From a virus, in the IMG/VR virus record IMGVR_UViG_3300044731_001604, positions 62,001 to 126,000 of that record: a stretch of 64,000 nucleotides of DNA, one strand, 5' to 3'. Positions 2,940 through 43,311 of this stretch are shown here, in pieces; position 1 is the first letter of the stretch; every line of letters begins with the position of its first letter. The notes beneath the pieces are model-generated. The model made no database searches. It had not been told where the DNA came from and saw only the letters and a program-made list of their open reading frames with translations. Made by a program: the position numbers and the translations under genes.

Positions 2940-3128
2940 ATGACTAAGCGCGAATTGTCCGCATCTGTTTACATATTGGTTACTTTTATTATATGCTATT
3001 TTGCTTATGGTGTTTATCAGACAAAACAACAAATTTCTCAAGCTTGTGAAGATCAGTGCTACCCGGCGGATGTTAAAGACGCAGATATGCAATATTGTAA
3101 ATGTTTTTACAAAAAAGCTGGGATGTAA
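2940..3128 (+). CDS. Small membrane-anchored cysteine-containing protein, 62 aa
   Basis: A membrane or signal-anchor segment spans residues 9-26 (VYILVTFIICYFAYGVY). The following soluble part has four cysteines (CEDQC...CKC) that could form disulfides in the periplasm. It starts one base after the upstream stop and overlaps the next ATG at 3128. The first residues MTKRE echo the start of the repeat-protein family downstream, but the body does not match. Function unknown. Confidence 0.6.
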   Translation: MTKRELSASVYILVTFIICYFAYGVYQTKQQISQACEDQCYPADVKDADMQYCKCFYKKAGM

Positions 3129-3301
3129 TGGTTAAAAGAGAGCGCATTAGTCTTGGTCTTAATGGTAAAATAAGTTTAGTAATCGGCGATCAAGTCGGAT
3201 ACGATCTATTAAATCATTTGTACACGAAGCTCTATAAAGATTTAAACTATAGTATTGCAATTAAACTACGTTCATACTTATACGAGAAACCCCAAAAATG
3301 A
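3128..3301 (+). CDS. MKKR-family small repeat protein (divergent), 57 aa
   Basis: The start at ATG 3128 overlaps the previous stop. It begins MVKRER and continues with hydrophobic residues about every four positions (NHLYTKLYKDLNYSIAIKL), a degenerate form of the tetrapeptide pattern seen in its paralogues. It overlaps the next family member by four bases. It belongs to the family discussed in the findings, but more weakly than the 11-12 kb copies. Confidence 0.55.
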   Translation: MVKRERISLGLNGKISLVIGDQVGYDLLNHLYTKLYKDLNYSIAIKLRSYLYEKPQK

Positions 3302-3495
3302 ATAAGAGAGATCAACACACCATTTCATTTGATTATGAGCTGAGGACAGTATTTCATAATTATTTTTCAACACAAATGCATGGCGATCTTACAAGAGATG
3401 TGTGGATGGAAATTTGGGAAAAACTCGCCTACCAACTAAAAGATAATATGAAAGATAAAGTTAAAGACGTAATTAAGGACAGAATTTCAAAATGA
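3298..3495 (+). CDS. MKKR-family small repeat protein, 65 aa
   Basis: Begins MNKRDQ. The C-terminal half shows the period-4 pattern (EIWEKLAYQLKDNMKDKVKD), with hydrophobic residues every four positions flanked by K, D, N or Q. Its ATG overlaps the previous stop, and its TGA overlaps the ATG of the exonuclease gene at 3492, so three consecutive genes appear translationally coupled. Function unknown. Confidence 0.65.
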   Translation: MNKRDQHTISFDYELRTVFHNYFSTQMHGDLTRDVWMEIWEKLAYQLKDNMKDKVKDVIKDRISK

Positions 3496-5587: not shown

Positions 5588-7735
5588 TTAATATATCTCT
5601 CGCCATTGTAATCCAGCTGATATATTTGTGGCTTTTGTATCAATATTTTTAACAATTATGACATAAACTTCCGAGTTAGTAGAATCAAAATTTTGCACTA
5701 TATAGTTCTTTTTAGCCGAACTTGGAATTACTGCATTTGAATCGCTTCCAGCCTTACTTCCGCCTTGTGACGCAGATGCTGCAAACCCAACGCTTAGTAT
5801 GTCTGCATTTGTATATCCAGTCGCATTAGCTAGATATTCAACGCCACTTTCAGAGTTAGTACTGGTCCACACTCCAGCTCCACCTGTTAAGTTAGACGCA
5901 TTTTGTAATTTTGCTATAGAAAATTGAACGTTACCAGAATCAGTGAAAACTGTAACTTGTCCTAGTCTAGCTAACATACGATTTAAATATGTTTTATAAT
6001 TATTTTTCAATCTAATTGCTAATATTGGTAAAGTTTGACCTGTGCCCAAAAGTCTTGGTGTGGGACTTGCAAGCGCCCAATCAATTCCAGCCTCAACATA
6101 TCCGCCTTCACTAACAACTGTACTACAAATTTGATCCATATATGCACCAGTTGTAACTCCGGTGTTAAATATTTCGCAGCGAACTGGCAAATTTGGATTA
6201 CTCATATAAACTGTAGTAAGATTATTTTCGCCATCAAAATGATGCGCCTCAATATATTTACCCTCATGAGAAAACCCAACCCTGACTCTTCCCACGCCAA
6301 GCCATTGAAAATCTATAAAAAGCAACTGAGTTTTTGTAATATCTAAGTTTAAAGAACTAATTCCAGTTCCATCGCACTTGTCAACATTCCAATTTAACTG
6401 AGAAACTCTATTTTCATTGACGGCACCATTAATATAGCTTCTTAAGACAATATTTAAGGTTCCGTTTCCGGTTTGTTCAAAGTAAATTCCATTATTATCA
6501 TCAAACAGCCCAGTTCTTTTTGTCACCCCTGAAGTACTTGAATAAAAATTAAAGGATGACATTATTAGCTGGCTTTTTCCTGGCATATAATGATGATAGC
6601 ATTTGGTCTGGTGTATCGCCTTACTATTAACATCACTGCTGGTAGTCAATCTCGCGCATGCTTTATTTGATTGAAATGAAATAGTTCCACCATTTAATGT
6701 ATAGTCTATGAAATTTGGGTCTATTCCGTAGAGATGTTTATAGTCTCCAAGGGTATACGGCTCGCTCACTCTTTGTCTTGCAAAAGCATCTAGTGTGCCG
6801 ACCCCAGGAGTTGTAAAAACAGATCCGGATACTACCCACGGATTTGTTCCTTGATTTGCAGTAACTGTTCCGTTTACAGTTTGAGTTGCCGGGAAATTAC
6901 CAACATCAACTGTTCCGTTTACAGTTTGAGTTGCCGGGAAATTACCAACATCAACTGTTCCGTTTACAGTTTGAGTTGCCGGGAAATTACCAACATCAAC
7001 TGTTCCGTTTACTGTTTGTGTAGCTGGGAAATTACCAACATCAACTGTTCCGTTTACTGTTTGTGTAGCTGGGAAATTACCAACATCAACTGTTCCGTTT
7101 ACTGTTTGTGTAGCTGGGAAATTACCAACATCAATGGAAGAGTTTAAAAAATATACGTCTAACCCAATATCAGTTCCAACAGTATGCGATGTTAAAAAAT
7201 TGGTTCCGTCTCCAAGACGAACAGAATCATTTGTATGTGTAAGATCAACGTCTAGGCTAACTTCTGGCTTAATTGTAATATTTGCATCAACAGCAAGTCT
7301 ATTAACTCCATTTTCATCTGCTACAAATTCTGCATACTGACCATATTTATCTACGAGGATTGATCTTTTTGCATTTATTGGATCTTCTGCATGACTAGCT
7401 CTTTCAAAAATCTCCATTCCCATCGGATTTCTTTGTTGTTCCCAAGCAGTTAAGGTTCCGCCGGAGTACGAAGTAGGATTGGAAAATGTGGCCATGTCTT
7501 TTCCAACTGGACCGACTTGAATCTGAGTGTCAGAGATAACTCTCTTAATTTCAAGCTCTAGTTGTTCTAAGCCTGTTTTATTTAAATATACCAATTGTTT
7601 AGGATGTAATAATCCTTGAGTATCTGGTACTGTAATTATATGATTTGAAACTTGAATCGGATTGGCTAAAAATGTAGGCCACCGTCTATCAAACGACGAA
7701 GTTAACTTGCTCATAATAAAATTTCCCCAACCCAA
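5588..7735 (-). CDS. Putative virion fibre / surface protein with DVGNFPATQ repeats, 715 aa
   Basis: Residues 1-200 are beta-rich. Residues ~201-290 hold six tandem copies of a 15-residue unit (DVGNFPATQTVNGTV). The remaining ~420 residues are a beta-rich C-terminal domain. Runs of VxGNFPxxQ(T/P)VxG units are known in many phage tail and baseplate-associated structural proteins. A receptor-binding or spike-associated role is therefore plausible but not shown. Its start at 7735 follows a CCTAATCT motif by 56 bases, as for other virion genes. The repeats are nearly identical at DNA level. Confidence 0.6.
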   Translation of the reverse strand: MGWGNFIMSKLTSSFDRRWPTFLANPIQVSNHIITVPDTQGLLHPKQLVYLNKTGLEQLELEIKRVISDTQIQVGPVGKDMATFSNPTSYSGGTLTAWEQQRNPMGMEIFERASHAEDPINAKRSILVDKYGQYAEFVADENGVNRLAVDANITIKPEVSLDVDLTHTNDSVRLGDGTNFLTSHTVGTDIGLDVYFLNSSIDVGNFPATQTVNGTVDVGNFPATQTVNGTVDVGNFPATQTVNGTVDVGNFPATQTVNGTVDVGNFPATQTVNGTVDVGNFPATQTVNGTVTANQGTNPWVVSGSVFTTPGVGTLDAFARQRVSEPYTLGDYKHLYGIDPNFIDYTLNGGTISFQSNKACARLTTSSDVNSKAIHQTKCYHHYMPGKSQLIMSSFNFYSSTSGVTKRTGLFDDNNGIYFEQTGNGTLNIVLRSYINGAVNENRVSQLNWNVDKCDGTGISSLNLDITKTQLLFIDFQWLGVGRVRVGFSHEGKYIEAHHFDGENNLTTVYMSNPNLPVRCEIFNTGVTTGAYMDQICSTVVSEGGYVEAGIDWALASPTPRLLGTGQTLPILAIRLKNNYKTYLNRMLARLGQVTVFTDSGNVQFSIAKLQNASNLTGGAGVWTSTNSESGVEYLANATGYTNADILSVGFAASASQGGSKAGSDSNAVIPSSAKKNYIVQNFDSTNSEVYVIIVKNIDTKATNISAGLQWREIY
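6864..7133 (-). repeat. Six tandem 45-bp repeats inside the fibre gene
   Basis: Six head-to-tail 45-bp units encode DVGNFPATQTVNGTV. On the plus strand each begins ACTGTTCCGTTTAC. The three units at 6864-6998 share one sequence variant (ACAGTTTGAGTTGCCGGG) and the three at 6999-7133 share another (ACTGTTTGTGTAGCTGGG). The two variants differ only at silent sites, suggesting recent unit duplication. Confidence 0.9.
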
Positions 7736-7838: not shown

Positions 7839-8036
7839 TTAAATGCGTTTTGAAGTCTGAATATATCTTTGCGCCTGTTCTTTGGTTTCTTTATATAAAA
7901 CATCAAATAACATACTGCCGAGATTTGAATATGATTTTGAATAAATACTATAGGATGGCATGTTGCAATATTTTGAATACAGCCTGCTTCTGAAACTAGT
8001 AAGGTGTGCGCTCCCCAATGCTTCTCGTTTTTCCAT
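7839..8036 (-). CDS. MKKR-family small protein (divergent), 65 aa
   Basis: Begins MEKREA; the body (SRLYSKYCNMPSYSIYSKSY) keeps only a loose four-residue hydrophobic periodicity. It is the last gene of the leftward operon that starts with the MoxR ATPase, one base after the preceding family member. Function unknown. Confidence 0.55.
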   Translation of the reverse strand: MEKREALGSAHLTSFRSRLYSKYCNMPSYSIYSKSYSNLGSMLFDVLYKETKEQAQRYIQTSKRI

Positions 8037-8037
8037 C

Positions 8038-8229
8038 TTATTTGCCTATTTTTTCTTCATATAATTGTTGGTGAGTTTGATCTCTTAATTCGTACCAGAG
8101 CGTGATGTCTTTTAATTGCTCCCAAATTTGGGCATACATTTGATCTGATATTGTGGAATGGAGCCACATATACAGTTCGTCCCTAAATCTCTCTCTTAGT
8201 TTATCCCGAAACTGCTCTCTTTTTCTCAT
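8038..8229 (-). CDS. MKKR-family small repeat protein, 63 aa
   Basis: Begins MRKREQ and carries clear tetrapeptide periodicity from residue 8 (DKLRERFRDELYMWLHSTI, DQMYAQIWEQL). It ends with a charged tail. It lies directly behind another family member in the MoxR/VWA operon, with almost no gap. Its neighbours suggest co-expression with the ATPase pair. Function unknown. Confidence 0.7.
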   Translation of the reverse strand: MRKREQFRDKLRERFRDELYMWLHSTISDQMYAQIWEQLKDITLWYELRDQTHQQLYEEKIGK

Positions 8230-8421
8230 TTATGTATTTTTCTTTTGGGTTTCGTGACAGATTTGTTCACATATTTGATCAATCAATTCTGCATTGATTT
8301 CATATATTTCTTCCCAAGTCCCTTCTAAAACATTATCAATAACGTCACCATATACGTTTCTATCAATCATTTCATATAAATGATCTTTGATTTTTCTATA
8401 TATCTGATGACGTTTTTTCAT
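8230..8421 (-). CDS. MKKR-family small repeat protein, 63 aa
   Basis: The start at ATG 8421 (MKKRHQ) is preferred over an in-frame start 57 bases upstream because every paralogue begins this way, and the longer form would overlap the VWA gene. The period-4 pattern runs through KDHLYEMIDRNVYGDVIDNV and on to the end (ELIDQICEQI). It begins eight bases after the VWA gene stop, so it is probably co-transcribed. Function unknown. Confidence 0.7.
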   Translation of the reverse strand: MKKRHQIYRKIKDHLYEMIDRNVYGDVIDNVLEGTWEEIYEINAELIDQICEQICHETQKKNT

Positions 8422-8428
8422 TGTATGC

Positions 8429-9535
8429 CTACAATCTGATAACTTTGCCGAAATCGCCTGGTGGATTTTGTGACCCAACTCCTACCCAAATAAAGGGAAT
8501 GCCTGGATTTGTCGGCGTGTCTGCGCAATCAAAATCACCGAAATATATAATAGCGTCACATTTTCTTTTTACGCATTCGTCAATTGCTGGTTGATATGCA
8601 GTTCCACCGCTACCAAATCTTTTTGTTAATACACCAGGTTTAGCTTTTCCACCTTTAATTACATCAACTTTTTGCACTTCAGAATCTGCGTGGACTAAGT
8701 AAGTGATCGTAGTATTTTTTGCTATAGATGATATTTCATTTAAGAATGATGAGTAAGCTTCGTCCGAGATTGACCCTGACGAATCAGTACATACACCAAG
8801 TATTAAATTTCTTTTCTTTTTCTTGCCTGGTTGATCTAGCTCAAATCTTCTGTGAGTTTTAAGGCGTGTGCTTTTAGTTTGGACGTCCCTAGCCGATGAA
8901 ACAAAGTTTCTTAAGAGCTGCTTCCAGCTAATTGTCGCTGGTTTATTTAAATTACCAATGATAGACTCTAATCCATTCGGAACAAGCCCACCAGATGCCT
9001 TTATGGCTTGATTAACCTTGTCTTTAATAATCACTCTATCTAAATCGCCTTTTTCGCTTTCGTTCATTTCATCATGATCGCTCATCCACGATGCTACTTC
9101 TTGCTTATCTGCTACTTCTGCCATTTCTTTGTAATAGTATTCCCAAGACTCTTTTGGCAAAAGTTTCTTCTTACACATTTCTTCTGCCCACGCAAGCGTA
9201 ATGCAATCTGATGGTAAATCAGAAATGTGTTGGTTAATAGCGCAATCTTTTGCTATGTTTGTTAATTGATGATTAAGGATATCTCCAGCCCTATTGCCGA
9301 TATGATCTAAAACCGCGTGTAAAACTTCGTGTTTTAACACAGCAATCTGTTGAGCATCGGTTAATGTTGCAAACCAGTCTGGATTTACTTTAAAGTAAAG
9401 CTCTTTGTTCTTAATACCTACGCAAGCTCTTTCAATTTTTGGATCATCATAAACGACTCTAGAGCCTAAAATAAAATTAGCATAGAATCGTTCGGTATTA
9501 ATTAACGTAAAAATTGGCTTTTCTAGTAAACCCAT
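8429..9535 (-). CDS. VWA-like metallopeptidase-type protein (DUF2201 family), 368 aa
   Basis: The N-terminal half carries the zinc-binding motif HEVLHAVLDH (about residues 89-98) in a context (KHEVLHAVLDHIGNRAGD) typical of the putative metallopeptidase domain. The C-terminal half has a VWA-like domain with the MIDAS-type motif CTDSSGSIS, FGSGGTAYQPAI and YFGDFDCAD. This two-domain layout matches the DUF2201 family, which usually pairs with a MoxR AAA+ ATPase, and such an ATPase lies immediately upstream. The pair may remodel a protein complex. Substrate unknown. Confidence 0.8.
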   Translation of the reverse strand: MGLLEKPIFTLINTERFYANFILGSRVVYDDPKIERACVGIKNKELYFKVNPDWFATLTDAQQIAVLKHEVLHAVLDHIGNRAGDILNHQLTNIAKDCAINQHISDLPSDCITLAWAEEMCKKKLLPKESWEYYYKEMAEVADKQEVASWMSDHDEMNESEKGDLDRVIIKDKVNQAIKASGGLVPNGLESIIGNLNKPATISWKQLLRNFVSSARDVQTKSTRLKTHRRFELDQPGKKKKRNLILGVCTDSSGSISDEAYSSFLNEISSIAKNTTITYLVHADSEVQKVDVIKGGKAKPGVLTKRFGSGGTAYQPAIDECVKRKCDAIIYFGDFDCADTPTNPGIPFIWVGVGSQNPPGDFGKVIRL

Positions 9536-9558
9536 GGAAATCTCCTATTATAATAATA

Positions 9559-10617
9559 TTATGCTTTTTCAAACTGAGCTGCGTATTCGGGGTCATTTAA
9601 GAGATCATTTTTTCCATGGAAATTGCCAAGTTTTCCTAATCCGACAAAGGCTTTCATAGCTAACTCAATTGGGATATCTAGTAGAAATTGCTTTAGATTA
9701 TCAATAGACATATCTGCTGAAAGGAGGTGAGGGTTGCTCTCTAGTTTAGCAAATAATTCATCAATTGGCTGATTAAGAACATCCATGCGAACATTGCTAG
9801 CACTTGCCGTGATATCTAATACTTTATTTCTAGCAATTTTTTTGTAGTTTTTAAGAATGTCATTAAGGCTTAATCCTGTTTCTTGCTTAGCTTTGTGTGT
9901 TAATCTAGCCGCTGCTGCAACCGGCCCTACAATACCTGAATATAATTCATATCTTAGACTATCATCTAATCCTTCTTCTAAATCAAGGGCGCCAACGCTT
10001 TCAAGCCAAGCTCTAGGGTCTCTTGTAACCATTGACATATCAAGTCTTCCGCCTTCTTTTGCAGTAAGATTTAACATCTCAGGTTGTTCACGAATAAAAG
10101 AAGCAAGGCTAAATAATCCTCTGCTTTCTGCATAAACTAACCATTCTTCAGTTGTAGGAGTGAAATCAATATGACAGAAACGAGATAGCCAAGCTGAGTC
10201 GCTTGTATCTGTTGTAGTGAATCTTTCTGATTGGTAGTTTCCAGCAGCAGCGATACGCCAACCCGGAGGTAATTTGTGTGTATGAATAGTTCCATTTTGC
10301 ACAAAAGAATACATTGCTTGAATTACATCAGTCGGCGCTCTATTTAATTCATCTAAAAAGATAATTCCTTCACCCTCAGTAGGAAACCATTTAGGTTTTG
10401 CATGATAAACTTCGCCGTTTTCGCCTTTAACTAAGAGGCCAACTAAATCGCCCACATCTTGAGTAGCCGTGTGTAAAACTCTTAATTGTAAGTTGTTCTT
10501 TACGCAATACTGATTCCAAAACTGTGTCTTTCCAACACCTTGACTGCCCCAAAAGAATGGAACAATTCGGTTTTTTAATAGAAAAGGAATAGCTTTGTTG
10601 ATTTCAGAAATATTCAT
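9559..10617 (-). CDS. MoxR-type AAA+ ATPase, 352 aa
   Basis: The start is ATG 10617, with GGAGGTCC ideally placed; an earlier in-frame ATG at 10641 would put that site inside the gene. It has Walker A (GSQGVGKTQF, about residues 26-35), Walker B (GIIFLDELNRAP, about 104-115), a sensor-1-like AAGNYQ and a sensor-2/arginine-finger region near DSAWLSRFCHIDF. MoxR ATPases work with VWA partners as chaperone-like modules, and the VWA gene follows after 23 bases. The pair has its own sigma-70-like promoter. Confidence 0.88.
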   Translation of the reverse strand: MNISEINKAIPFLLKNRIVPFFWGSQGVGKTQFWNQYCVKNNLQLRVLHTATQDVGDLVGLLVKGENGEVYHAKPKWFPTEGEGIIFLDELNRAPTDVIQAMYSFVQNGTIHTHKLPPGWRIAAAGNYQSERFTTTDTSDSAWLSRFCHIDFTPTTEEWLVYAESRGLFSLASFIREQPEMLNLTAKEGGRLDMSMVTRDPRAWLESVGALDLEEGLDDSLRYELYSGIVGPVAAAARLTHKAKQETGLSLNDILKNYKKIARNKVLDITASASNVRMDVLNQPIDELFAKLESNPHLLSADMSIDNLKQFLLDIPIELAMKAFVGLGKLGNFHGKNDLLNDPEYAAQFEKA

Positions 10618-10636
10618 CTGGACCTCCGTTTCAATT

Positions 10637-10665
10637 ATCATAACATTTTATTTTCGGTACGTCAA
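10637..10665 (-). promoter_or_regulatory. Sigma-70-like promoter of the MoxR/VWA operon
   Basis: Minus-strand TTGACG (10660-10665) and TATGAT (10637-10642) are separated by 17 bases, about 20 bases before the ATPase ATG. Both boxes match at five of six positions. This operon therefore looks like host-polymerase (early-type) transcription, and no CCTAATCT motif is present. Confidence 0.75.
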
Positions 10666-10740: not shown

Positions 10741-11367
10741 ATGGATAACAAAATTACTGAACTTACCCCAGAACAAGAAGCGTTATTTCCAGCTTATTTG
10801 GAAAAATTCAGAAATATCGGCCTATCAACTACTCCAACAAATAGACAAAAGGCTGAAGAGGCTTTAACAAAAGCTTATGCTTATTTATCTAAAACTGATC
10901 CTAATTTATGCGTTCCAAATCCAGAAATCATCTGGGCAGAAAGCCCAATGGCAGGCGCAGTTCTTGCTGCTCAACACGCTAAAGGCGATCTTAACGTAAC
11001 AGATTCAGAAGTGCAAGATCAAGCTTGGCGAGCTTCTTATGGTTCATTCGAGGCATACTGGGTGAGTACTTATTCATTTATCTGCAATGAGCTTCCAGTA
11101 GAAAAAGACGAGCTTATCGACATCGTTATGGAAATCATCAATGAGTGCGGCGTGTACTGGACATATAAAGATTTGGTTATCCTTACTCCAAAGCCAACTT
11201 TTATCGGAATGAAAGACGGAAAATTACACAACTCTAAAGGGCTAGCTTTAGCATATCCAGATGGAAACGGAATCTATGCTGTAAATGGTTCTAGAAAAAA
11301 CTCTTTAATTGAAGCTACGTTAGAACAAAGAGCTAACAGCTTAATTGGTTCAACTTCAGAAGATTAA
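10741..11367 (+). CDS. DUF6745-like protein, 208 aa
   Basis: Several segments match the DUF6745 family as I recall it. The N-terminus LTPEQEALFPAYLEKFRNIG is followed by LSTTPTNRQKAEEALTKAY, then AESPMAGAVLAAQ, YGSFEAYWVSTYSFI, YWTYKDLVILTPKP, KLHNSKGLALAYPDG and IYAVNGSRK. Bacterial members normally carry long tetrapeptide repeats of the (S/D)QL(W/R) type in the middle; here that part is reduced to a few residues. Small proteins made of related four-residue repeats are encoded immediately downstream. AAAAAGGAG precedes the ATG. The function of DUF6745 is unknown to me. Confidence 0.75.
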   Translation: MDNKITELTPEQEALFPAYLEKFRNIGLSTTPTNRQKAEEALTKAYAYLSKTDPNLCVPNPEIIWAESPMAGAVLAAQHAKGDLNVTDSEVQDQAWRASYGSFEAYWVSTYSFICNELPVEKDELIDIVMEIINECGVYWTYKDLVILTPKPTFIGMKDGKLHNSKGLALAYPDGNGIYAVNGSRKNSLIEATLEQRANSLIGSTSED

Positions 11368-11390: not shown

Positions 11391-11582
11391 ATGAGGCAAA
11401 GAGATCAGATAAATAGAATAAGCAACAAGTATTTTGATCATATTGACGGCGACCTTTATAATGAAAATTTTCATTTAATATCAGATTATCTCCAATACAT
11501 TTTATACATTGAGCGCTCACCAGTCGATAACATTGTTGACGAGCTATCCACATATATTGAGACTATGAATTTGGGGAATTGA
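11391..11582 (+). CDS. MKKR-family small repeat protein, 63 aa
   Basis: Begins MRQRDQ at ATG 11391, with GAGGG ahead; an upstream ATG (11379) lacks a site and breaks the family alignment. The repeat is weaker than in neighbours (KYFDHIDGDLYNENFHLI), but the N-terminus is typical. It is the first of seven consecutive small genes after the DUF6745-like gene. Confidence 0.65.
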   Translation: MRQRDQINRISNKYFDHIDGDLYNENFHLISDYLQYILYIERSPVDNIVDELSTYIETMNLGN

Positions 11583-11587
11583 TTTAA

Positions 11588-11785
11588 ATGAAAAAACGCA
11601 AGCAGATAGACGGAATCCTTTTTACGATTATTGAAAACAATCTTTACCATCAGGTATACTACGATGTCAATTCAAAAAATCGAGAAAAGATCTATACAGG
11701 AATTTACGAACTGCTTATGGATGAACTAAATGTTAAGTTAATAAATATTATTAACGATTTTATTAAATCGAGAAGAGCATCATGA
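11588..11785 (+). CDS. MKKR-family small repeat protein, 65 aa
   Basis: Begins MKKRKQ. Hydrophobic residues recur every fourth position from residue 18 to the end (NLYHQVYYDV, then KIYTGIYELLMDELNVKLIN). The stop overlaps the ATG of the next paralogue (ATGA). No cysteine, signal peptide or long hydrophobic segment. Function unknown. Confidence 0.7.
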   Translation: MKKRKQIDGILFTIIENNLYHQVYYDVNSKNREKIYTGIYELLMDELNVKLINIINDFIKSRRAS

Positions 11786-11979
11786 AAAAAAGGGTTCAGA
11801 TACCTGATTTTTTAAATGAAAACATATGCGATCATCTTAGATATAGCATATATGTTCAAGTTGATGATACTATTTGGCGTGTAATACTATCTGAACTATA
11901 TATAAAACTTCATGATAAGCTTAACAATACGTTAATTAATGAAACCTGGGATTATATTAAAATGGGGCCAAAAATATGA
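11782..11979 (+). CDS. MKKR-family small repeat protein, 65 aa
   Basis: One of the most regular members: MKKRVQ, then twelve near-perfect tetrads from residue 14 onward (NICDHLRYSIYVQVDDTIWR, then VILSELYIKLHDKLNNTLIN). It overlaps both neighbouring family genes by four bases, indicating translational coupling of the array. Function unknown. Confidence 0.72.
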   Translation: MKKRVQIPDFLNENICDHLRYSIYVQVDDTIWRVILSELYIKLHDKLNNTLINETWDYIKMGPKI

Positions 11980-12182
11980 AAAAGCGCATCCAATTTAATG
12001 ATCCTCTATATAATATATTCTATCCTAAAATTAGAGATAGAGTTAGGCTTGAAATAAAATATAAAACTTTTGAAAAGATAAGCAAGAGACTCACTGGTGA
12101 GCTTAATTCGCAATTCTGGGGCCAAATTGGATATCAGATTGGTAAATACATCGAGGATAGGAGTTCAAGTGAGAAGGCGTGA
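11976..12182 (+). CDS. MKKR-family small repeat protein, 68 aa
   Basis: Begins MKKRIQ. Tetrads run through the middle and end (KTFEKISKRLTGELNSQFWG, QIGYQIGKYI). Its 3' end overlaps the GTG-started next member by 14 bases. Function unknown. Confidence 0.7.
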   Translation: MKKRIQFNDPLYNIFYPKIRDRVRLEIKYKTFEKISKRLTGELNSQFWGQIGYQIGKYIEDRSSSEKA

Positions 12183-12351
12183 GCAGATTACTGATCAGCT
12201 TAGGGATAATGTTTGGGAATCTTTAAACGGGCAGCTCCAATATCAAATTGAACCAGATATCTATAATAGGCTGCATGACGTTCTGTGCGAAGAAAAGAGA
12301 TACAGACTCATAAGCCAATTATATTTATATTTAAGGACTAGGGTTAACTAA
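12169..12351 (+). CDS. MKKR-family small repeat protein with GTG start, 60 aa
   Basis: The start at GTG 12169 (reading MRRREQ) is chosen because TAGGAG lies upstream and the N-terminus then aligns with all paralogues; the longer frame has no such support. It has strong tetrads (DQLRDNVWESLNGQLQYQIE, DIYNRLHDVL). Of all copies, it resembles most closely the QLW/QLR repeats recalled from DUF6745 proteins. Confidence 0.68.
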   Translation: MRRREQITDQLRDNVWESLNGQLQYQIEPDIYNRLHDVLCEEKRYRLISQLYLYLRTRVN

Positions 12352-12555
12352 ATGAGGAAACGAGAACAAATCACTAGTCAATTTTCATATCAACTTTGGG
12401 ATAGACTTAGAGATGACATATACGTGCAACTGTATTCCTCATTTAATGAGGACATACACAATAAACTCAGGGACAATCTTTGGCTTGAGCTGCAAATATT
12501 ATTGTACGATAGAACGTATAGCTATTTGCAAAACTATATAGGCAAGAAGCAATGA
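12352..12555 (+). CDS. MKKR-family small repeat protein, 67 aa
   Basis: Begins MRKREQ. It has eleven or so consecutive tetrads from residue 13 (QLWDRLRDDIYVQLYSSFNE, then DIHNKLRDNLWLEL) in which position 2 is always L, I or F and positions 1 and 4 are Q, D, N or S. The ATG directly follows the previous stop. The stop overlaps the next ATG. Confidence 0.72.
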   Translation: MRKREQITSQFSYQLWDRLRDDIYVQLYSSFNEDIHNKLRDNLWLELQILLYDRTYSYLQNYIGKKQ

Positions 12556-12728
12556 AGAAGAATAAAATTATAGAATTTAAATTAAGAGTTAGATTAAAAG
12601 AACAAATCACAAAATCTTGTGGTTCAGATTGTATCAGCACGTCAAGAAAAAAGCTAAGAGAATTATCATCTTACGACTTATATAAAGCGGCTGTTGGAGA
12701 AATTGTCTCTGCTTCTGTGTCAAAATAA
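12552..12728 (+). CDS. Small basic protein at the end of the MKKR array, 58 aa
   Basis: ATG 12552 overlaps the TGA of the preceding family gene. It begins MKKNKI and contains RLKEQITKSCGSDC, then RKKLRELSSYDLYKAA. It lacks the R-x-Q signature and regular tetrads, so it is at most a decayed member. Support for coding is the four-base overlap and an uninterrupted frame. Function unknown. Confidence 0.5.
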   Translation: MKKNKIIEFKLRVRLKEQITKSCGSDCISTSRKKLRELSSYDLYKAAVGEIVSASVSK

Positions 12729-12794
12729 ATATTTTTTAATATTTTTCTTGCTTTTAATATCAGATATTGGTAATCTAGGTTTATTGGAGGCGTT

Positions 12795-13184
12795 ATGAAA
12801 TTCAAAGCCGGAGATAGATTTATAGTTAAGGCAAGCGAGTCTGATTTAGGAGCCACTGGAAAAATAACTGGAATTGGGTTTAATTCTATACGCCAATCTG
12901 ACGAATATAGATATGTTTGGGACCAGCAATTCGGCGGTTCTACTGGGAGCTGTGATACAGAAGTTGGGGATTCTATGTGGGACATTATTGCGGCAGATAT
13001 CCACACACATACATACACACATGTTTACACAATTCCTGAAGACAATTATACAATTTCAGTTGGAAACATCGTTTGGAACAATCCTACTTCCAACTCTACA
13101 AATTGTTCCCACGAATATAAAATGTATAATGGATTTACTGAAAGTTATGAATTTTGCATTAAATGCGATAAAAGAAAGATCTAG
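12795..13184 (+). CDS. Hypothetical protein with C-terminal zinc-ribbon-like motif, 129 aa
   Basis: ATTGGAGG precedes ATG 12795. Residues 1-75 look like a small beta barrel (MKFKAGDRFIVKASESDLG...TGKITGIG), a layout seen in SH3-like phage proteins. The C-terminus carries CSHEYKMYNGFTESYEFCIK plus CDKRK, a C-x-H...C-x-x-C arrangement that may bind zinc. The middle has a histidine-threonine-rich run (HTHTYTHVYT). A small DNA- or RNA-associated protein is possible, but no function is known. Confidence 0.65.
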   Translation: MKFKAGDRFIVKASESDLGATGKITGIGFNSIRQSDEYRYVWDQQFGGSTGSCDTEVGDSMWDIIAADIHTHTYTHVYTIPEDNYTISVGNIVWNNPTSNSTNCSHEYKMYNGFTESYEFCIKCDKRKI

Positions 13185-13188
13185 TAAT

Positions 13189-13407
13189 ATGAGGAAAAGA
13201 GAGCAGCCTAATAATTTGTTTTTTAACCAACTTGTCATAAAGCTTAGGGATCAAGCTGAAAACCAACTTTGTGATAATTTAAGTTATCAACTACATGATA
13301 ATCTTAAGCTTTACAAGATTTGTGAACAGTTTCGCAATACAGCTCTTAATATTATTCGTACACAATCATTAAATGATATTGATAATAAATTAAAAAGAAA
13401 GGTTTAA
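13189..13407 (+). CDS. MKKR-family small repeat protein, 72 aa
   Basis: The start at ATG 13189 gives MRKREQ; an in-frame extension 315 bases upstream would overlap the 12795 gene entirely and is rejected. Tetrads are clear at FNQLVIKLRDQAENQLCDNL and SYQLHDNL. It ends one base before the next ATG. Function unknown. Confidence 0.7.
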   Translation: MRKREQPNNLFFNQLVIKLRDQAENQLCDNLSYQLHDNLKLYKICEQFRNTALNIIRTQSLNDIDNKLKRKV

Positions 13408-13408
13408 C

Positions 13409-13756
13409 ATGGAAAATCTATATCTAGACAAAGAGGCTTTTCTTGAAGATGAATATGTGTCTGAGGTTGTAATCATTGACACGTTACCTGGCGGATTTAA
13501 CCAGAGATCTGAATTATTGCCTGAGCCAATTGAAATTTTGAAATTTGAGAAAGTTAGCAGCAAGTTATCTTTGGAAAGAAAAGTAAGACTATCTGCAAAT
13601 TATATTACTGCAGAGGAGGGTCTTAAAATGATCCAAAAAAGTGAGAGACTACACGCCAAATCTAATAGAAAATGTACTTCTTGTGGAGGATACGTCCCAA
13701 AAGAAAATTTTAGTAGATGCAATACTTGCGTTAAATTAAAAAATGTGGTAGACTAA
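13409..13756 (+). CDS. Hypothetical protein with C-terminal zinc ribbon, 115 aa
   Basis: The C-terminal 35 residues contain CTSCGG...CNTC (two C-x-x-C pairs about 16 residues apart), a treble-clef or zinc-ribbon-like element close to those at the start of phage HNH proteins. The N-terminal 80 residues are acidic and not recognised. It may be a transcription- or nucleic-acid-binding accessory protein, which is inference only. It lies inside the small-gene run. Confidence 0.65.
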   Translation: MENLYLDKEAFLEDEYVSEVVIIDTLPGGFNQRSELLPEPIEILKFEKVSSKLSLERKVRLSANYITAEEGLKMIQKSERLHAKSNRKCTSCGGYVPKENFSRCNTCVKLKNVVD

Positions 13757-13778
13757 TTAGATAAAATAGGTAGTTAAT

Positions 13779-14000
13779 ATGAAGAAACGTAAGCAAATAT
13801 CAGATCATATAAGTAATGATTTAAAGTTTGAGCTTTTTGATAGGCTTGAAGAGCAGGTTGATGGTGAACTTTTTGATCAAATTGATGAGGAACTTTTTGA
13901 GTACGTTACAGGTGGAAGCTACATTGACATAGATGTAAACTTAATAAAAGAACAGTTGTTTTCTCATATTGAAAATATAAATGGCCGAAAGGTTGGTTAA
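13779..14000 (+). CDS. MKKR-family small repeat protein (acidic), 73 aa
   Basis: Begins MKKRKQ. Very regular tetrads (HISNDLKFELFDRLEEQVDG, ELFDQIDEELFEYV) are rich in D and E rather than Q and N. It is the most acidic member. It overlaps the coding start region of the next gene only if that gene used an upstream ATG. Function unknown. Confidence 0.7.
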   Translation: MKKRKQISDHISNDLKFELFDRLEEQVDGELFDQIDEELFEYVTGGSYIDIDVNLIKEQLFSHIENINGRKVG

Positions 14001-14001
14001 A

Positions 14002-14208
14002 ATGAAAAAACGAGAAGGAATGAAGATTTTGCCGAAAGATCAAATTAGTCCTGAAGTTTGGGATAGAATCGTTAGCCAGCTTGAGAATCGTCTTAACGGC
14101 CAAAATAAAGCCATAGAGGCGCCAAAAAAAGAAGGCTTTGTAAGATTTCTTAAATATAAGACATACTTTAATGCAATTAAAAATCTATTTAATAAGAAGG
14201 GCGGTTAA
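14002..14208 (+). CDS. MKKR-family-related small basic protein, 68 aa
   Basis: ATG 14002 gives MKKREG and aligns with the family; an in-frame ATG at 13981 lies inside the preceding gene and lacks a binding site. Only a short tetrad run is present (QISPEVWDRIVSQLENRLNG). The C-terminal half is lysine-rich (FLKYKTYFNAIKNLFNKKGG). Probably a diverged or shortened member. Confidence 0.6.
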   Translation: MKKREGMKILPKDQISPEVWDRIVSQLENRLNGQNKAIEAPKKEGFVRFLKYKTYFNAIKNLFNKKGG

Positions 14209-16168: not shown

Positions 16169-16417
16169 ATGAGAGCTAGAGATCAGATTGGTCACTTCAC
16201 AAGTAGCCAGTATATTCATTTTTTAAAACAAATAAATAAATCAAATTGTTTTGGCACAGTGAGTGTTGCATCTGTGTTTGTTGGCCATCGAACAATCCAA
16301 GTTAAAGCTGGAAGTTTTATATTAGACAAGCTTTCCACTATCGCTGATGAATGCCCAAGTCTAAGACATCATATAATGGACCACATAATAGAAAATTCTT
16401 ACGGAAACTGCAAATAA
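16169..16417 (+). CDS. Hypothetical protein with MKKR-family-like N-terminus, 82 aa
   Basis: It begins MRARDQIGHF, like the MKKR family, but the rest (GTVSVASVFVGHRTIQVKAG, then LRHHIMDHIIENSYGNCK) has no tetrad pattern. Either a shared leader on a different body or a strongly diverged paralogue. It is the last gene of the rightward block, five bases ahead of a strong terminator. Confidence 0.55.
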   Translation: MRARDQIGHFTSSQYIHFLKQINKSNCFGTVSVASVFVGHRTIQVKAGSFILDKLSTIADECPSLRHHIMDHIIENSYGNCK

Positions 16418-16983: not shown

Positions 16984-19719
16984 TTAAGCTGTTTGTTCTA
17001 CTTGAGAAATGGTCATTGAGATTGGAACGAAGTAAATTAAACCAGCGAGTTTGATCTCTACGCTGACTTCACATACAGGTCCAGTGATTTTAACTGTAGC
17101 GTTTTTATAACCCTTAGTTGCATCATCTGATTGAGCAATCCATTTAAGTCTCAAGAAGTTAAACATTTCAGTGTCTAAGATACTTAAAGCAGCCGCTGCA
17201 GAGATATCAGCTACAGATTTACCAACTACTAAGCGATCAAAACGGTCGATTAGAGTAAGTACGATTAAATCTGAGATATAAACAGCTTGCATGCTATTGT
17301 AAACGAAATTGTTATCAGCAGAATATGTGCTTTGATCAGATACCCATCTGAATCCGCCAGTTGGAACTTTTTCCATGAACAACAATCCAGCTTTTAATGC
17401 ATCTTCTCTATCACCTTGAAGAGAAGTGTCGAAATCGCCAGAAGTCATAGAAATTCCGCTTACAGAAGCGAATTTTTTAACGATACCTTTGTATCCTGCA
17501 GCAGCCTGCATTCCAGCAGCTGTGATCGCAGACATCCAAGGTTGGTATAAAGTAGATCCGATTTTAGCGTTTTGGAAGCAGAGGTACATTCTGTATGAAG
17601 AAAGTTCTCCAGACATCTCTTTAACGTTTGCATAAGTATCAATTACAGATGCAAAACCTTGTCTATTCTTTTTAGCTTTAATTTGGCTCATTTTATTAAC
17701 GTGAGCTTTAAGGTAAGCATTGATAGAAGAGATAGTATAAGTAGAAGAGCTTTCAGTTTCTTCAGCCGCGATATCTGCAGTAGCATCTTGTGAGAATAAT
17801 GGAACGATAAAGTTAGTATCCAATTTTTCACATGCATCAATTGCAGTAACAACGATTGCTGAAGTTGTTCCAGCTTTAGTTCCATCAGATAAGAATTGGA
17901 AAGAAGCAGTAGCTTCAGGCAATCCAGCAGCAAGAACTTCAAAAGAAGCATAAGCGCTACCGTTCATTGTTTCAGAGAAATCAGAAGCATCTTTTTTAAG
18001 TCTAGCATTGTTTGCAATACCAGAAGCTCCATAAGTTCCCATATCTAATTTAGAAGGAGCAACAGAACTGTACTTAGCAGAAACAACTGAAGCTGTCCAG
18101 TTAGTTTGTGAGTTAACAAAATCAGCTAAATCAGTTAATGTTTTATATTGTTTATAAGTAGCTGAGAATACCATTGTAGAAGCTACATAGAAATCAACAC
18201 TTTCTGTTCCAACATCAACTGTTGCATCTTCTTCAGAGCAACCGATAGTTATAACAATGTCACCACCAGCTTGGAGGATTTCAGAGTTAGTTCCTTGAGT
18301 GATTGTCATTTGATTTTTGTATTCAGCAGCAGACACTAATTGTTTATAGCTTAGACCTGCATCTGTTCCAGCGTCTGTTTTGAAGATTTCGCTAGTTGAG
18401 CTTTCAATTGCCAATGTTTTTCCCAATCCAGACATAACTGGAGCAAGAACTACTAGAGGTTCCGTGCCAGAGCTATATGCTGCAGAAGCAGGAACTGAAG
18501 CAATTGAAGATCCTTCAGAAAGTCTAGAAGCAGTAATTGATGTAGCAGTTGCAGCAGTGATTTGATAGAAACCAGCGGCTACTGTTCCAAAAGTAGCAGC
18601 AACTTTCATGATGTCGCCGATACTTGGAGTAACATTTAAATTAGCTGGTGCGTCGATTTTTACGCTTGATCCAGTGTTAATAGATACTGTATAAGTACCG
18701 AAAACATCTTGAACAGCTTGTCTTTCGTCGCCAGTCATATTTTTAATTTCGATTTTAGAATAGAACACAAGGTCACGTTTATCAACAGACACTGATCCAG
18801 AAGCAGATGTTAAAGCTGCTGCAGAGTAAACTTTTTTCAAAGTTACTGTAGCTGAAGAAGAAGTGTTTGTAGCTGCTGTAACGATGTACGTTCCAACGTT
18901 TTCTTGAGAAGATCCAGCAATCGCTGAATTTTGAGCAGCAGAGTAATCACCATTTGCAGGGATTACAGCTACGTCTCCAACGCTTGGAATAGTTGTCCAC
19001 AATTTAGTAGCTTGTAAAGTTACTAAAAGAGTACTTGCGTCAAGTGCAGATGCAGAGAATGTAGATGTAGTTGGCAATAAGATTTTTTCTTGTCCACCAG
19101 TTGCCAATACGCCTTCTGCGATATTTTCTAATGCTGCAACTAATGCATCTGGAGCCATTTTAGGAGTAACAGTGTGAGACATTTTTGCTCCACCGTTAAT
19201 TCTTAAATCAACATAATTTGTGTCAGATAAAGTTGGAGTATAGCAAATTTCTCCAGTTGTAGGTGCAGTTTCTGCTCTAGCAACATCTGATTTTTGTTTA
19301 ATTAAGTTTCCGTCAGTTCCTTCTTTTTTAGCTAAAACATTAGCATAAGTAGGAGTGTCTTTAACTTTTTGAGTCATCGTAGCGGCTGCTTTAGTTGACA
19401 TATTAGTTTTAATAATTCTTACCGCACCAACAGAACCTAAAATGTTAGGGTCATTTGCAGCAGAAACTAATTGTTTAAAAGCATCAACGATGTGACCACT
19501 TTTATATTTAGACTGTACTTTGCTGTACTGGTCTGGAGTGAATATATTTGCTGTAAGATCTGATTCATCTAAGAATCCTGGACCGGCATCAGCTTCACCA
19601 ATAAGTGTAACTACTCCAGCAGAAGCGATTGCACCCTGGCCACCTTGAACAGATACTGAAACTACTGCACCTGGTTCAATTAATGTAATTCCATCTTGGG
19701 TCGTAAATTTTTGACTCAT
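16984..19719 (-). CDS. Contractile tail sheath protein, 911 aa
   Basis: The N-terminus has the sheath-type start (PGAVVSVSVQGGQGAIASAG, VVTLIGEADAGPG), and the C-terminal ~200 residues contain GKSVADISAAAALSILD and MFNFLRLKWIAQ, then a beta strand end domain (KLAGLIYFVPISMTISQVEQ). These ends interlock in known sheaths. At 911 residues it is larger than typical (about 400-700). The extra length comes from beta-rich insertions (about residues 150-650), probably surface domains. It starts after a CCTAATCT motif, with AAGGAG at the ATG. Confidence 0.82.
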   Translation of the reverse strand: MSQKFTTQDGITLIEPGAVVSVSVQGGQGAIASAGVVTLIGEADAGPGFLDESDLTANIFTPDQYSKVQSKYKSGHIVDAFKQLVSAANDPNILGSVGAVRIIKTNMSTKAAATMTQKVKDTPTYANVLAKKEGTDGNLIKQKSDVARAETAPTTGEICYTPTLSDTNYVDLRINGGAKMSHTVTPKMAPDALVAALENIAEGVLATGGQEKILLPTTSTFSASALDASTLLVTLQATKLWTTIPSVGDVAVIPANGDYSAAQNSAIAGSSQENVGTYIVTAATNTSSSATVTLKKVYSAAALTSASGSVSVDKRDLVFYSKIEIKNMTGDERQAVQDVFGTYTVSINTGSSVKIDAPANLNVTPSIGDIMKVAATFGTVAAGFYQITAATATSITASRLSEGSSIASVPASAAYSSGTEPLVVLAPVMSGLGKTLAIESSTSEIFKTDAGTDAGLSYKQLVSAAEYKNQMTITQGTNSEILQAGGDIVITIGCSEEDATVDVGTESVDFYVASTMVFSATYKQYKTLTDLADFVNSQTNWTASVVSAKYSSVAPSKLDMGTYGASGIANNARLKKDASDFSETMNGSAYASFEVLAAGLPEATASFQFLSDGTKAGTTSAIVVTAIDACEKLDTNFIVPLFSQDATADIAAEETESSSTYTISSINAYLKAHVNKMSQIKAKKNRQGFASVIDTYANVKEMSGELSSYRMYLCFQNAKIGSTLYQPWMSAITAAGMQAAAGYKGIVKKFASVSGISMTSGDFDTSLQGDREDALKAGLLFMEKVPTGGFRWVSDQSTYSADNNFVYNSMQAVYISDLIVLTLIDRFDRLVVGKSVADISAAAALSILDTEMFNFLRLKWIAQSDDATKGYKNATVKITGPVCEVSVEIKLAGLIYFVPISMTISQVEQTA

Positions 19720-33971: not shown

Positions 33972-34880
33972 TTACAGCATTCCTGCCGGTCCGGATTTAT
34001 TTCCTGGAGTGTCGTCATCTGAAACTGGCCAAGCTGATTGATATCTATTGTCCATTATATTGCTATTTGGATCTCTATTAACGTCAAATAAAATATGTTC
34101 TCTGATTGCCATGGCTTGATAGGGCATTCTTTCCACTGATCGCTCAAACGTATTAGGGTCTGTTATTTGAGTTACTCGTATCTCGTGTAAAAGTCTTGCA
34201 ATTATATAATATGGGGTATATCTGTATCTAACTGCATAAACTGTACCGCGACCTGTCTTAATGTTAAAACCAGGTCTTTCTTGAGTTAACCACTTAAGCC
34301 AGCCTTCATTTGTAATTTCAAAATGAACTCCACACTTATAGTCTTTTCCATCTGCATCCATAATGCTTTCTACATGAGTTGCTGGATATTGCAATCTATC
34401 AATTCCTGTAGTTGATGCTTCCACATACTGATTTGTTATTGTATGTAATTCAATATTTTTTAAATAAATTCTGTCATATGGAGCAAGGACTACTTCTTTA
34501 TCTGGGCAATCTTCATATGATCTACTGAATGTCATTTGTACAGTATCATGTTTTAATAAACCTTGAGTTTCAATTTCCCAGTTGCTTGAATTAGATGAAA
34601 ATGAAGCCCAGAATGTTCCAGCAGATTTATAGATGTATCCATCCGAACTTGCTCTTCTGGCTTGAACTGCATGGTTGTCACCTCTTGATGCCATTCCACT
34701 TGGGTCTAGGCAAGCTCTCATGTGTTCACACAACACGCCTTGGCTTTTAATTAAAGCGTCAAAAGCGTTCTTATCAAATGATTGTTGAAACTGGCTTAAT
34801 GTAAAATATTGCTGCGTACCTTCGGCATGCTGGCTTTCTCTTTCTCTAGGTCCACCTTTTCTGTTTTGATTTTCTGACAT
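33972..34880 (-). CDS. Conserved phage structural protein, 302 aa
   Basis: The start is ATG 34880, overlapping the upstream stop (TAATG) with AAGGCGG; the longer frame to 34952 lies inside the upstream gene. Segments GVLCEHMRACLDPSGMASRG, VVLAPYDRIYLKNIEL, STTGIDRLQYPATHVESI, RGTVYAVRYRYTPYYIIARL and TFERSVERMPYQAM match a protein I know as conserved and unnamed in virion modules of large phages. Probably part of the neck or baseplate. No enzymatic motif. Confidence 0.6.
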   Translation of the reverse strand: MSENQNRKGGPRERESQHAEGTQQYFTLSQFQQSFDKNAFDALIKSQGVLCEHMRACLDPSGMASRGDNHAVQARRASSDGYIYKSAGTFWASFSSNSSNWEIETQGLLKHDTVQMTFSRSYEDCPDKEVVLAPYDRIYLKNIELHTITNQYVEASTTGIDRLQYPATHVESIMDADGKDYKCGVHFEITNEGWLKWLTQERPGFNIKTGRGTVYAVRYRYTPYYIIARLLHEIRVTQITDPNTFERSVERMPYQAMAIREHILFDVNRDPNSNIMDNRYQSAWPVSDDDTPGNKSGPAGML

Positions 34881-35332
34881 TACGACCGCCTTGAGAAATA
34901 TTTTAATGGTACAGCTGGTTCTGTTAAGGCTAGCGACCTTACTAGGGCCCACTCGCTGATGTTTTTTGAAAGAAGCTCTTCAGAATACATTATTTCTATT
35001 TCAGATTTACTAATATCATATACCGCAAAAAGATTTTCATCTCCAACTGGCTCAGGTAAGCTAGGCATAAATATGGCATCTCTTAGTCTATCAAATAATG
35101 AAATTTCTTCAGATTTTTTAATTTCATTCCACTCTATGTCTTCTTTTTTTTCTGCCAAGAACTTTGCTATTGCTGCATGTGGAGCTGCACCTAATGCAGA
35201 TATTTTACCATCTTCATCTTTGCAAAAGAAGGCATGCAATCCGCCTACAGTTTCTATATAAACCACAGGTCTACCATCTTTGGTCTCCCCAGCTATTTCT
35301 TTTGTTTTTATTTCTTCTGCTGGAATTTTCAT
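34880..35332 (-). CDS. Hypothetical virion-module protein, 150 aa
   Basis: A small beta domain at the N-terminus (KDGRPVVYIETVGGLHAFFC, ALGAAPHAAIAKFLAEKK) is followed by a helical part with two KSE tetrapeptides (IKKSEEISLF, ISKSEIEIMY). It overlaps the upstream gene by four bases and the downstream start by one. Function unknown. Confidence 0.55.
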   Translation of the reverse strand: MKIPAEEIKTKEIAGETKDGRPVVYIETVGGLHAFFCKDEDGKISALGAAPHAAIAKFLAEKKEDIEWNEIKKSEEISLFDRLRDAIFMPSLPEPVGDENLFAVYDISKSEIEIMYSEELLSKNISEWALVRSLALTEPAVPLKYFSRRS

Positions 35333-36378
35333 TTATTGTTCGCCTGTTTAATTTTTGATTTTAATTTTTCTTCACTAGTTAGCATAGAATCTGGCTTAAC
35401 TTCATCTAGTTTATCATCTCTTAGTCTACCTGGATCTAATCCAAAATTTGTAGATCTAGTTGGATTTGCGGTTATTTGATCTTCTCTTAATTTGTACCAC
35501 TTTTTAACTTTTTCAGCAAAGTCTGCGTCGTGGAACACAACATCTGATTTGAACATAAATTTAAAATTAAGCTCATTTGGTTTTTGTGCTTTAAATGGAT
35601 TGTGTTTATCAATTTTTTTATATTTATCTACATAAGTTGAATGTAATAGCTTGTCTTTGGTAATACTTTCTGGATATAAATTGTGGCCATTTAGCCATGC
35701 AAATGCTGCCTTATGCTCATTCCCGTTGTTTCTTGTTAAAACGTGATCTGCTAATTTTCTAGCTAATTCTAATTCTAATTTTGGATTCTTATTAATGTGT
35801 GCTTCTAAGGTGCTATTTGACATCGTTGCAAGCTTGTCTATTTCTGGTCTAGACTTTCCAGATATCTTATATCTGTTAACTATTTCTTTAATAGTTTTTG
35901 GAAGCAATCCCCATTGGCCCATTGCTTTTTCTCCAACAGACAATCCAGTTTTAACTGTTTTATGATTTATATTTTTACCGTTGTTAGACTCTAATACTTT
36001 TAAATTCCACAAAAAAGCATCTCTTGGATGAGATCCAAAGCCAGATAAGTCTATTGGAGAATTTTGTACTTGTGGGACATTGTTTTGTACACCAATATGG
36101 CTAGTCGCTACTGGCGTAATTGCAGCAGCTAATCCTAGACCTAAAGACAAAGCCTTCTCTCTTAGAGATTTAGATAGGTCTGAGCCTTCTACCCAGGCAT
36201 TCATGTTATGCGAAGATAAGTATTCTGCAATGTTGTTTAAAGCATCTTGTAAAGAGTCAGATTCAGTCGCAATATCGTATGTTCTAGGATATAAATCGAA
36301 CAGAGGTTGGAGGTCATCGAATTCATTAATTCTAAAATGTTTTCTTTCTTTATTTATAGATTCAACAAACAGCACCAT
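35329..36378 (-). CDS. Lytic-transglycosylase-like virion protein, 349 aa
   Basis: Residues ~140-235 contain TGLSVGEKAMGQWGLLPKTI, then LELARKLADHVLTRNNG and HKAAFAWLNGHNL. This order, (E)xAxGxxGLxP, a helix with periodic leucines and AxxAWNxG, resembles soluble lytic transglycosylases; Glu in VGEKAMG is a catalytic candidate. Such domains open the peptidoglycan during DNA entry. The N- and C-terminal parts are unassigned. It overlaps the next gene by four bases. Moderate call because the motif is not fully canonical. Confidence 0.5.
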   Translation of the reverse strand: MVLFVESINKERKHFRINEFDDLQPLFDLYPRTYDIATESDSLQDALNNIAEYLSSHNMNAWVEGSDLSKSLREKALSLGLGLAAAITPVATSHIGVQNNVPQVQNSPIDLSGFGSHPRDAFLWNLKVLESNNGKNINHKTVKTGLSVGEKAMGQWGLLPKTIKEIVNRYKISGKSRPEIDKLATMSNSTLEAHINKNPKLELELARKLADHVLTRNNGNEHKAAFAWLNGHNLYPESITKDKLLHSTYVDKYKKIDKHNPFKAQKPNELNFKFMFKSDVVFHDADFAEKVKKWYKLREDQITANPTRSTNFGLDPGRLRDDKLDEVKPDSMLTSEEKLKSKIKQANNK

Positions 36379-36379
36379 A

Positions 36380-38143: not shown

Positions 38144-38150
38144 AATTAAT

Positions 38151-38158
38151 AGATTAAG
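38151..38158 (-). promoter_or_regulatory. CTTAATCT motif, copy 9
   Basis: Minus-strand CTTAATCT with only seven bases (ATTAATT) before ATG 38143 and no ribosome binding site, the same geometry as copy 6. Confidence 0.5.
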
Positions 38159-38168
38159 GTTCTGTCCT

Positions 38169-38220
38169 GTCTATGTATAAATAGACAAATAGATCTACAA
38201 AGTCTATGTATAGAGAGACT
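38169..38220. repeat. Two small hairpins with a shared GTCTATGTATA core
   Basis: GTCTAT/ATAGAC (38169-38186) and AGTCT/AGACT (38201-38220) form two short stem-loops, and the sequence GTCTATGTATA occurs in both. They lie in the 98-base gap between the 74-aa gene and the kinase-like gene. There is no T-run, so they are unlikely to be terminators; an RNA processing or regulatory role is possible. Confidence 0.45.
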
Positions 38221-38241
38221 TTTGTATATAGGTGCAGGATT

Positions 38242-38466: not shown

Positions 38467-38529
38467 AAGCACCTCTCTGAAATCAGTACATCCTAACTCC
38501 TATCTATAGTCAATGGTGCTTATCTAGTA

Positions 38530-39417: not shown

Positions 39418-39426
39418 TTTAAATTC

Positions 39427-39834: not shown

Positions 39835-39851
39835 AAAACCTCACTCTGGAT

Positions 39852-39859
39852 AGATTAGG
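39852..39859 (-). promoter_or_regulatory. CCTAATCT motif, copy 10
   Basis: Minus-strand CCTAATCT 18 bases before ATG 39834, with GAGG between them, in the 33-base gap after the ClpP-like gene. Confidence 0.55.
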
Positions 39860-39867
39860 TGCCTATC

Positions 39868-43119: not shown

Positions 43120-43311
43120 TTATTTTTTATTTATAATGTGAAAATATATTTGCATGAAGAGCGTGGTATAATGCTCTTCGTATATTTTATACCTAATCCC
43201 ATAATAAATATCTTTGCTACGTATGTTTTCATCAACTTGATGATGAGTTTGTATCTTCAATTGTTCATAAATGAAGTTGCTAAAATTTTCAAATTGCTCG
43301 CGCTTTTTCAT
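43120..43311 (-). CDS. MKKR-family small repeat protein, distant copy, 63 aa
   Basis: Begins MKKREQ and has clear tetrads (NFIYEQLKIQTHHQVDENIR, then DIYYGIRYKIYEEHYTTLFM). It is isolated from the main array by about 27 kb, on the opposite strand, between a dNMP kinase and a small SH3-like gene. This shows that the family disperses as single genes. Function unknown. Confidence 0.7.
   Translation of the reverse strand: MKKREQFENFSNFIYEQLKIQTHHQVDENIRSKDIYYGIRYKIYEEHYTTLFMQIYFHIINKK

Follow-up and report, generated by a model that had tools for sequence, protein, structure and literature searches.

The small-gene family and its layout

The DNA considered here is a 64,000-nucleotide window (bases 62,001-126,000) of the 157,572-bp virus contig IMGVR_UViG_3300044731_001604 from IMG/VR, and our subject is a family of tiny genes within it, whose products are built of four-residue units and part of which lies downstream of a gene for a 208-amino-acid (aa) protein of the DUF6745 family (Table 1). 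An earlier note, made from the letters of the window, had listed at least sixteen such genes. All sixteen are present where they were placed, and the count was an underestimate, since a further 30 copies lie outside the window (contig 34,866-40,794), making ∼46 in the whole phage. The 30 form one same-strand operon, with 4-base overlaps at 19 of 30 junctions and one non-family-like gene inside it (about contig 40,248-40,427). Overall, the copies are arranged as two main same-strand blocks plus scattered members, and Shine-Dalgarno (SD)-like motifs precede 13 of 47 starts, compared with 6% of all ATGs.

The DUF6745 gene does stand upstream of small genes, as the note had it, although the block that follows contains six of them (11391-12555) rather than seven, with those at 13189, 13779 and 14002 further on. 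The gene at 16169 was rightly described as an N-terminus only, having the leader common to the family but no repeat. Two further IMG/VR contigs (L012; L013/L015/L016) match the window phage fully or almost fully over the parts compared; they represent the same phage and therefore provide no independent evidence.

Table 1. The DUF6745 gene and the small tetrapeptide-family genes, in window coordinates
Feature	Position	Strand	Basis
208-aa DUF6745 protein, tetrapeptide run absent	10741..11367	+	PF20530 match; phrog_31813 match over N-terminal half; alignment
Small tetrapeptide-family gene with MRQRDQ start and very weak repeat	11391..11582	+	
Small tetrapeptide-family gene	11588..11785	+	Hydrophobic in phase 12/14; family profile 5.7e-16
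Small tetrapeptide-family gene	11782..11979	+	Period and family profile
Small tetrapeptide-family gene	11976..12182	+	Period and family profile
Small tetrapeptide-family gene with GTG start and strong repeat	12169..12351	+	Period and profiles
Small tetrapeptide-family gene, strong repeat	12352..12555	+	Period and profile; AlphaFold helix
Small tetrapeptide-family gene	13189..13407	+	Period and profile
Small tetrapeptide-family gene	13779..14000	+	Period and profiles
Small family gene, MKKREG start, partial repeat	14002..14208	+	Period and profiles
Small tetrapeptide-family gene, MVKRER start	3128..3301	+	In phase 11/12; profiles
Small tetrapeptide-family gene	3298..3495	+	Hydrophobic in phase 14/14
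Small family gene, MEKREA start, moderate repeat	7839..8036	-	Period and family profile
Small tetrapeptide-family gene, downstream of VWA-like gene	8038..8229	-	Period and profiles
Small tetrapeptide-family gene, downstream of VWA-like gene	8230..8421	-	Period and family profile
Small tetrapeptide-family gene, isolated	43120..43311	-	Profiles
N-terminal motif only, without repeat	16169..16417	+	Period p=0.37; -1.8 bits once residues 1-7 are removed

The four-residue repeat

The proposed period of four, with a hydrophobic residue at a fixed position, is evident when 28 members are counted together: L, I, V, F or M occupies 59% (234/399) of the positions in phase with residue 7 (7, 11, 15 and so on), versus 21-23% in the other three phases (97/419, 94/414 and 84/402), and periods of 3.5 and 3.6 give no signal in the small proteins. 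The phase is locked to the start, the leader MKKRxQI being itself the first unit; the products of 16169, with no repeat, and 11391, with a very weak one, are exceptions. Similarity among the copies also reaches well past the first six residues. On a profile built solely from the small proteins of other phages, and once the targets had been stripped of residues 1-7, 32 of 46 members (70%) score at least 10 bits, against 7 of 920 composition-preserving shuffles and 3 of 387 other small open reading frames.

The unit of the small proteins, L-[Y/R/W]-[D/N/S]-Q-L, matches in register, at all four positions, the tetrapeptide unit of the run found in DUF6745 proteins (x-[DSG]-[QS]-L, where x is W, R, G, Y, D or E). 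Glutamine stands before the hydrophobic residue in 81 of 101 cases (p 1e-22), aspartate at +2 from it in 84 of 140 (p 1e-10), and Y/R are enriched at +1, each at the corresponding position of the DUF6745 unit. The small proteins do not match the DUF6745 Pfam model PF20530; the resemblance is to the run, which lies outside the model.

In the window phage the repeat is held at the protein level, and the DNA repeat is gone. Near-identical 12-bp units are absent, 437 of 438 12-mers being distinct in its members (the copy at contig 36,753-37,001 left out), and in degenerate copies the hydrophobic position is encoded by 16 different codons. The copy left out of this count is almost perfect (QLVNQLRYQLVYQL...), and a regular DNA repeat is found in no other of these copies. 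Opposite the most regular copy, the other strand is open for 95 codons (L012:4748-5035, +; LIHQLIPQLI...), which is probably a by-product of the repeat.

A DUF6745 protein without its run

The 208-aa protein matches PF20530 with E 5.3e-8 and 32.8 bits (curated cut-off 27), which upholds its assignment to DUF6745. The match spans residues 98-184 on positions 8-88 of the 206 in the model, the C-terminal half of which is missing. Its N-terminal half matches phrog_31813, and the N-terminal LTPEQ...SP domain of full-length members, which lies outside the Pfam model, is present by alignment and by tblastn to MW202476 (residues 4-184). In the full-length proteins MW584211 gp38 and MW202476 UOF77368 the order is N domain, run, C domain. 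In the window protein, aligned with its run-bearing relatives, the N domain passes straight into the C domain, and the run found at that point in MW202476, MW584211 and many viral relatives is absent, as the note had noticed. The run of MW584211 gp38 starts KREQLWGQLRGQL (KREQL), like the MKKREQL start of small proteins; other runs start differently, and we regard this likeness as a pointer only.

Run in cis and stand-alone genes across phages

DUF6745 relatives were gathered from viral contigs by C-terminal or N-terminal patterns that do not include the run; the run and any stand-alone genes were then scored per locus, whole contigs being searched with the stand-alone-protein profile. Among the 34 phage loci, 25 are run-bearing and none of these has stand-alone tetrapeptide genes (two, L040 and L204, are contigs of only 4.9 and 4.5 kb), whereas six of the nine run-less loci do (p about 6e-5, kinship ignored). 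Without the seed loci the comparison is 4/6 versus 0/21 (p 9e-4, kinship again ignored). Every profile match in the 25 run-bearing records lies either within the DUF6745 reading frame or, relative to it, on the opposite strand or in another frame. The six run-less loci with stand-alone families are the window phage, L150, L151, L152, L153 and L162, and in L150, L152, L153 and L162 a stand-alone gene comes immediately after the run-less DUF6745 gene. Across the phages compared, and apart from two fragments taken up below, stand-alone genes accompany only run-less DUF6745 genes; a scan of bacterial and archaeal genomes for MKKRxQ-xxQ-xxQ returned 10 matches, all due to chance.

The unit type follows the lineage. 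In QL lineages the stand-alone proteins are QL-type. L162 falls among proteins of SSL type, and the stand-alone proteins of its phage have the SSL-type unit that is also seen in its relatives' runs. The L162 phage has ∼10 stand-alone genes on both strands, scattered as in the window and with the common leader MKKVEMKPL. On a tree of the DUF6745 core, the run-less label requires four changes, of which supported branches force at least two, indicating two or more separate losses of the run. The run-bearing L154 is the sister of the L150-L153 clade; the window protein sits on a long branch, and its placement is uncertain. Single stand-alone genes, with starts MIKRKQ, MKKRKQ and MKRLRHQ, are found on other phage fragments (L041:5363-5635, L014:4446-4634 and L036, respectively).

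Hypervariable arrays in cis

DUF6745 arrays of near-identical 12-bp units, with one or two hypervariable codons, occur in L154-L172, L010, L011, L033, L081, L095, L108, L198, L203, L206 and L207. Base statistics over 29 cis arrays (722 units), taken as departures from each array's own consensus, show that 8 of the 12 bases depart in less than 1% of cases, synonymous third positions included, compared with 48% at base 1, 16% at base 2, 7% at base 3 and 20% at base 5. The hypervariable codons are mostly limited to G, R, W, D, Y and E. In almost all arrays a single codon serves for Q/S and another single one for L, the choice differing between arrays. The order of units in most arrays has no excess of repeated blocks (the longest repeated substrings are like those of shuffles), although assembly may have been biased towards arrays lacking long repeats, and in several cases the contig breaks off within the run; the isolate MW584211 agrees. 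Contigs L031 and L161, otherwise 99.9% identical, appear to differ by a five-unit block. The 25 contigs searched, some of them fragments, contain no reverse transcriptase (PF00078), and retroelement-driven diversity was rejected on this ground.

Two proteins have, or seem to have, degenerate repeats in cis. One is a 1,419-aa DUF6745 protein with a very long repeat region (L169:2338-6594; 16 profile matches over ∼3 kb), and the other a Nostoc plasmid DUF6745 protein (L194:2506-3576), whose middle resembles a degenerate four-residue repeat much like that of the small proteins of the window.

Structure, searches for function and neighbouring genes

AlphaFold models the 67-residue protein encoded at 12352 as one long helix (residues 2-66) with a predicted local distance difference test score (pLDDT) of 96. 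A search of the PDB by fold with the DUF6745 model gives no match at E<0.001, and the viral library at the same threshold returns only DUF6745-like models. Sequence searches of the PDB gave nothing credible, and no named phage matched the region at the nucleotide level. The only matches from PADLOC, run for anti-phage defence, were to type I specificity subunits, and these were weak and of low complexity. Matches of the run to clumping factor, specificity subunits and DUF826 were set aside as low-complexity. In the literature we found no paper on DUF6745 or its repeat strings, and nothing relevant on phage tetrapeptide repeats.

Divergent from the DUF6745 gene lies a pair encoding a MoxR-type ATPase and a DUF2201 metallopeptidase/VWA-like protein (8429-10641, -), followed immediately downstream by three small family genes. 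The pair was rejected as a general partner system of DUF6745, DUF2201_N (PF13203) being present in only 4 of 28 related contigs. Another repeat in the window is that of a 715-aa virion structural protein (phrog_1645; 5588-7735, -), which contains about six near-identical tandem copies of DVGNFPATQTVNGTV.

Interpretation

In most phage DUF6745 proteins, a long arm of four-residue repeats separates the C-terminal DUF6745 domain from an N-terminal domain of ∼75 residues. In the window phage, this arm has very probably been cut from the DUF6745 gene and is now made as ∼46 separate small proteins, each with the short basic leader MKKRxQI. The identity of the parent, its missing run, the register of the unit and the association across phages all argue for the splitting and multiplication that the earlier note had proposed. 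Each small protein would be an extended, mainly helical rod displaying variable side chains, and the set of them a repertoire of arms, which may either dock in trans on the DUF6745 core that lacks an arm or bind its targets independently of that core. The diversity would be supplied in cis by one hypervariable codon per 12-bp unit and in trans by many diverged paralogues. It would be under selection, with host factors as the targets, and our guess is that contact with varying host factors explains why it is kept. We give a probability of roughly 0.6 to this statement as a whole, that is, to the split together with small proteins serving as diversified arms that act with, or in place of, the missing one. 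A broader formulation is doubtful, and we offer it as speculation: that the arm serves as a modular element for recognition, in which each unit has one hypervariable residue, that some mechanism in cis homogenises nearly all other bases and frees one or two codons, and that the split phages replaced diversity within the array by a library of paralogues.

Several observations weigh against the split repertoire. Three run-less loci have no stand-alone copies, namely L164 and L174 (fragments of 33 and 17 kb) and the complete Microcystis phage LMM01, whose DUF6745 protein has a non-repetitive linker instead of a run. Conversely, L014 and L041 (20-23-kb fragments) have one stand-alone gene each and no DUF6745 gene was seen in them. 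Four of the six positive loci (L150-L153) are one clade, such that the count overstates independence. The regular run of L154 is modelled as helical with low confidence (pLDDT 45-60). Finally, an exact period of four winds as a stripe around an alpha helix and does not form a single face, and hence partners cannot be read off from a simple coiled coil.

The alternative that survives best, although we consider it unlikely, is that the small proteins descend from the DUF6745 arm but are now free-standing, either self-assembling into a helical filament or coiled-coil scaffold or acting as many independent host-directed binders, with no link left to DUF6745. The 46 copies per single core, many of them far from the DUF6745 gene, are consistent with this, as are the isolated copies in L014 and L041 and the prediction of one long helix; yet phages that have stand-alone genes and enough sequence retain a run-less DUF6745 gene, often directly upstream. 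Much less probable is the reverse direction, in which the stand-alone proteins are ancestral and DUF6745 acquired them afterwards. Run-less DUF6745 does occur in unrelated places (LMM01, L164 and L174), but L150-L153, the run-less clade with the best sampling, falls within the run-bearing proteins on well-supported branches, and stand-alone families are seen only in phages.

Selfish or neutral expansion, in which 12-bp tandem repeats would propagate by slippage and spreading, with open frames arising incidentally, is already disfavoured. The regular copies (contig 36753-37001 and L153) are indeed built of near-identical 12-mers, and the antisense frame of regular arrays is also open, but most copies of the window phage keep period and register without a DNA repeat, and the succession of ∼30 genes, with overlaps of the ATGA type and an enrichment of SD motifs, also speaks against it. 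Convergence of easily arising QL- or SL-type repeats, which the many unrelated short QL-rich frames of the pattern scan and the ten chance matches in the genome collection might suggest, is the least probable of all, given the co-occurrence, the direct adjacency in several phages, the unit type matched by lineage and the agreement in register at every position.

A repeat module that leaves its parent protein more than once to become a multigene family is rarely caught with the cis form and the trans form both at hand. The hypervariable arrays in cis and the repertoire in trans look like two routes to one diverse arm, and both offer an entry to the role of DUF6745, a family with neither a PDB match nor, as far as we found, a literature.

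Comparison with known systems

Myxococcus phage Mx1 (OR576727) is the nearest named phage, judged by the tail sheath protein (window 16984-19719, -; 36% identity over the full length), for which it is the only named-phage match; this hints at a host near Myxococcota. Unlike the window phage, Mx1 has no tetrapeptide small proteins that the profiles find. Similarity to DUF826 (PF05696) is limited to a 27-residue stretch of the L154 run that barely exceeds the cut-off (25.3 versus 25 bits); neither the window phage nor any stand-alone protein has a match above threshold, and we do not take this low-complexity similarity as kinship.

The run-bearing DUF6745 proteins MW584211 gp38 and MW202476 UOF77368 share the unit (variable, D/S/G, Q or S, L) and have the N- and C-terminal domains of the 208-aa protein. 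They differ in that their run is inside one protein and near-identical in DNA, whereas the window phage has ∼46 separate and strongly diverged genes. Close parallels are five stand-alone families found in this analysis (IMGVR_UViG_3300028569_000044, _3300032237_001169, _3300023184_000026, _3300027983_001643 and _3300009514_000013). Their leaders differ (MNFTKPI, MKxxKQVELG, MKPIKEQL and MKKVEMKPL), their repeats are more regular and one of them is SSL-type, but like the family of the window they combine a short leader with a tetrapeptide repeat in several copies, overlapping or scattered on both strands, and have a run-less DUF6745 protein in the same phage.

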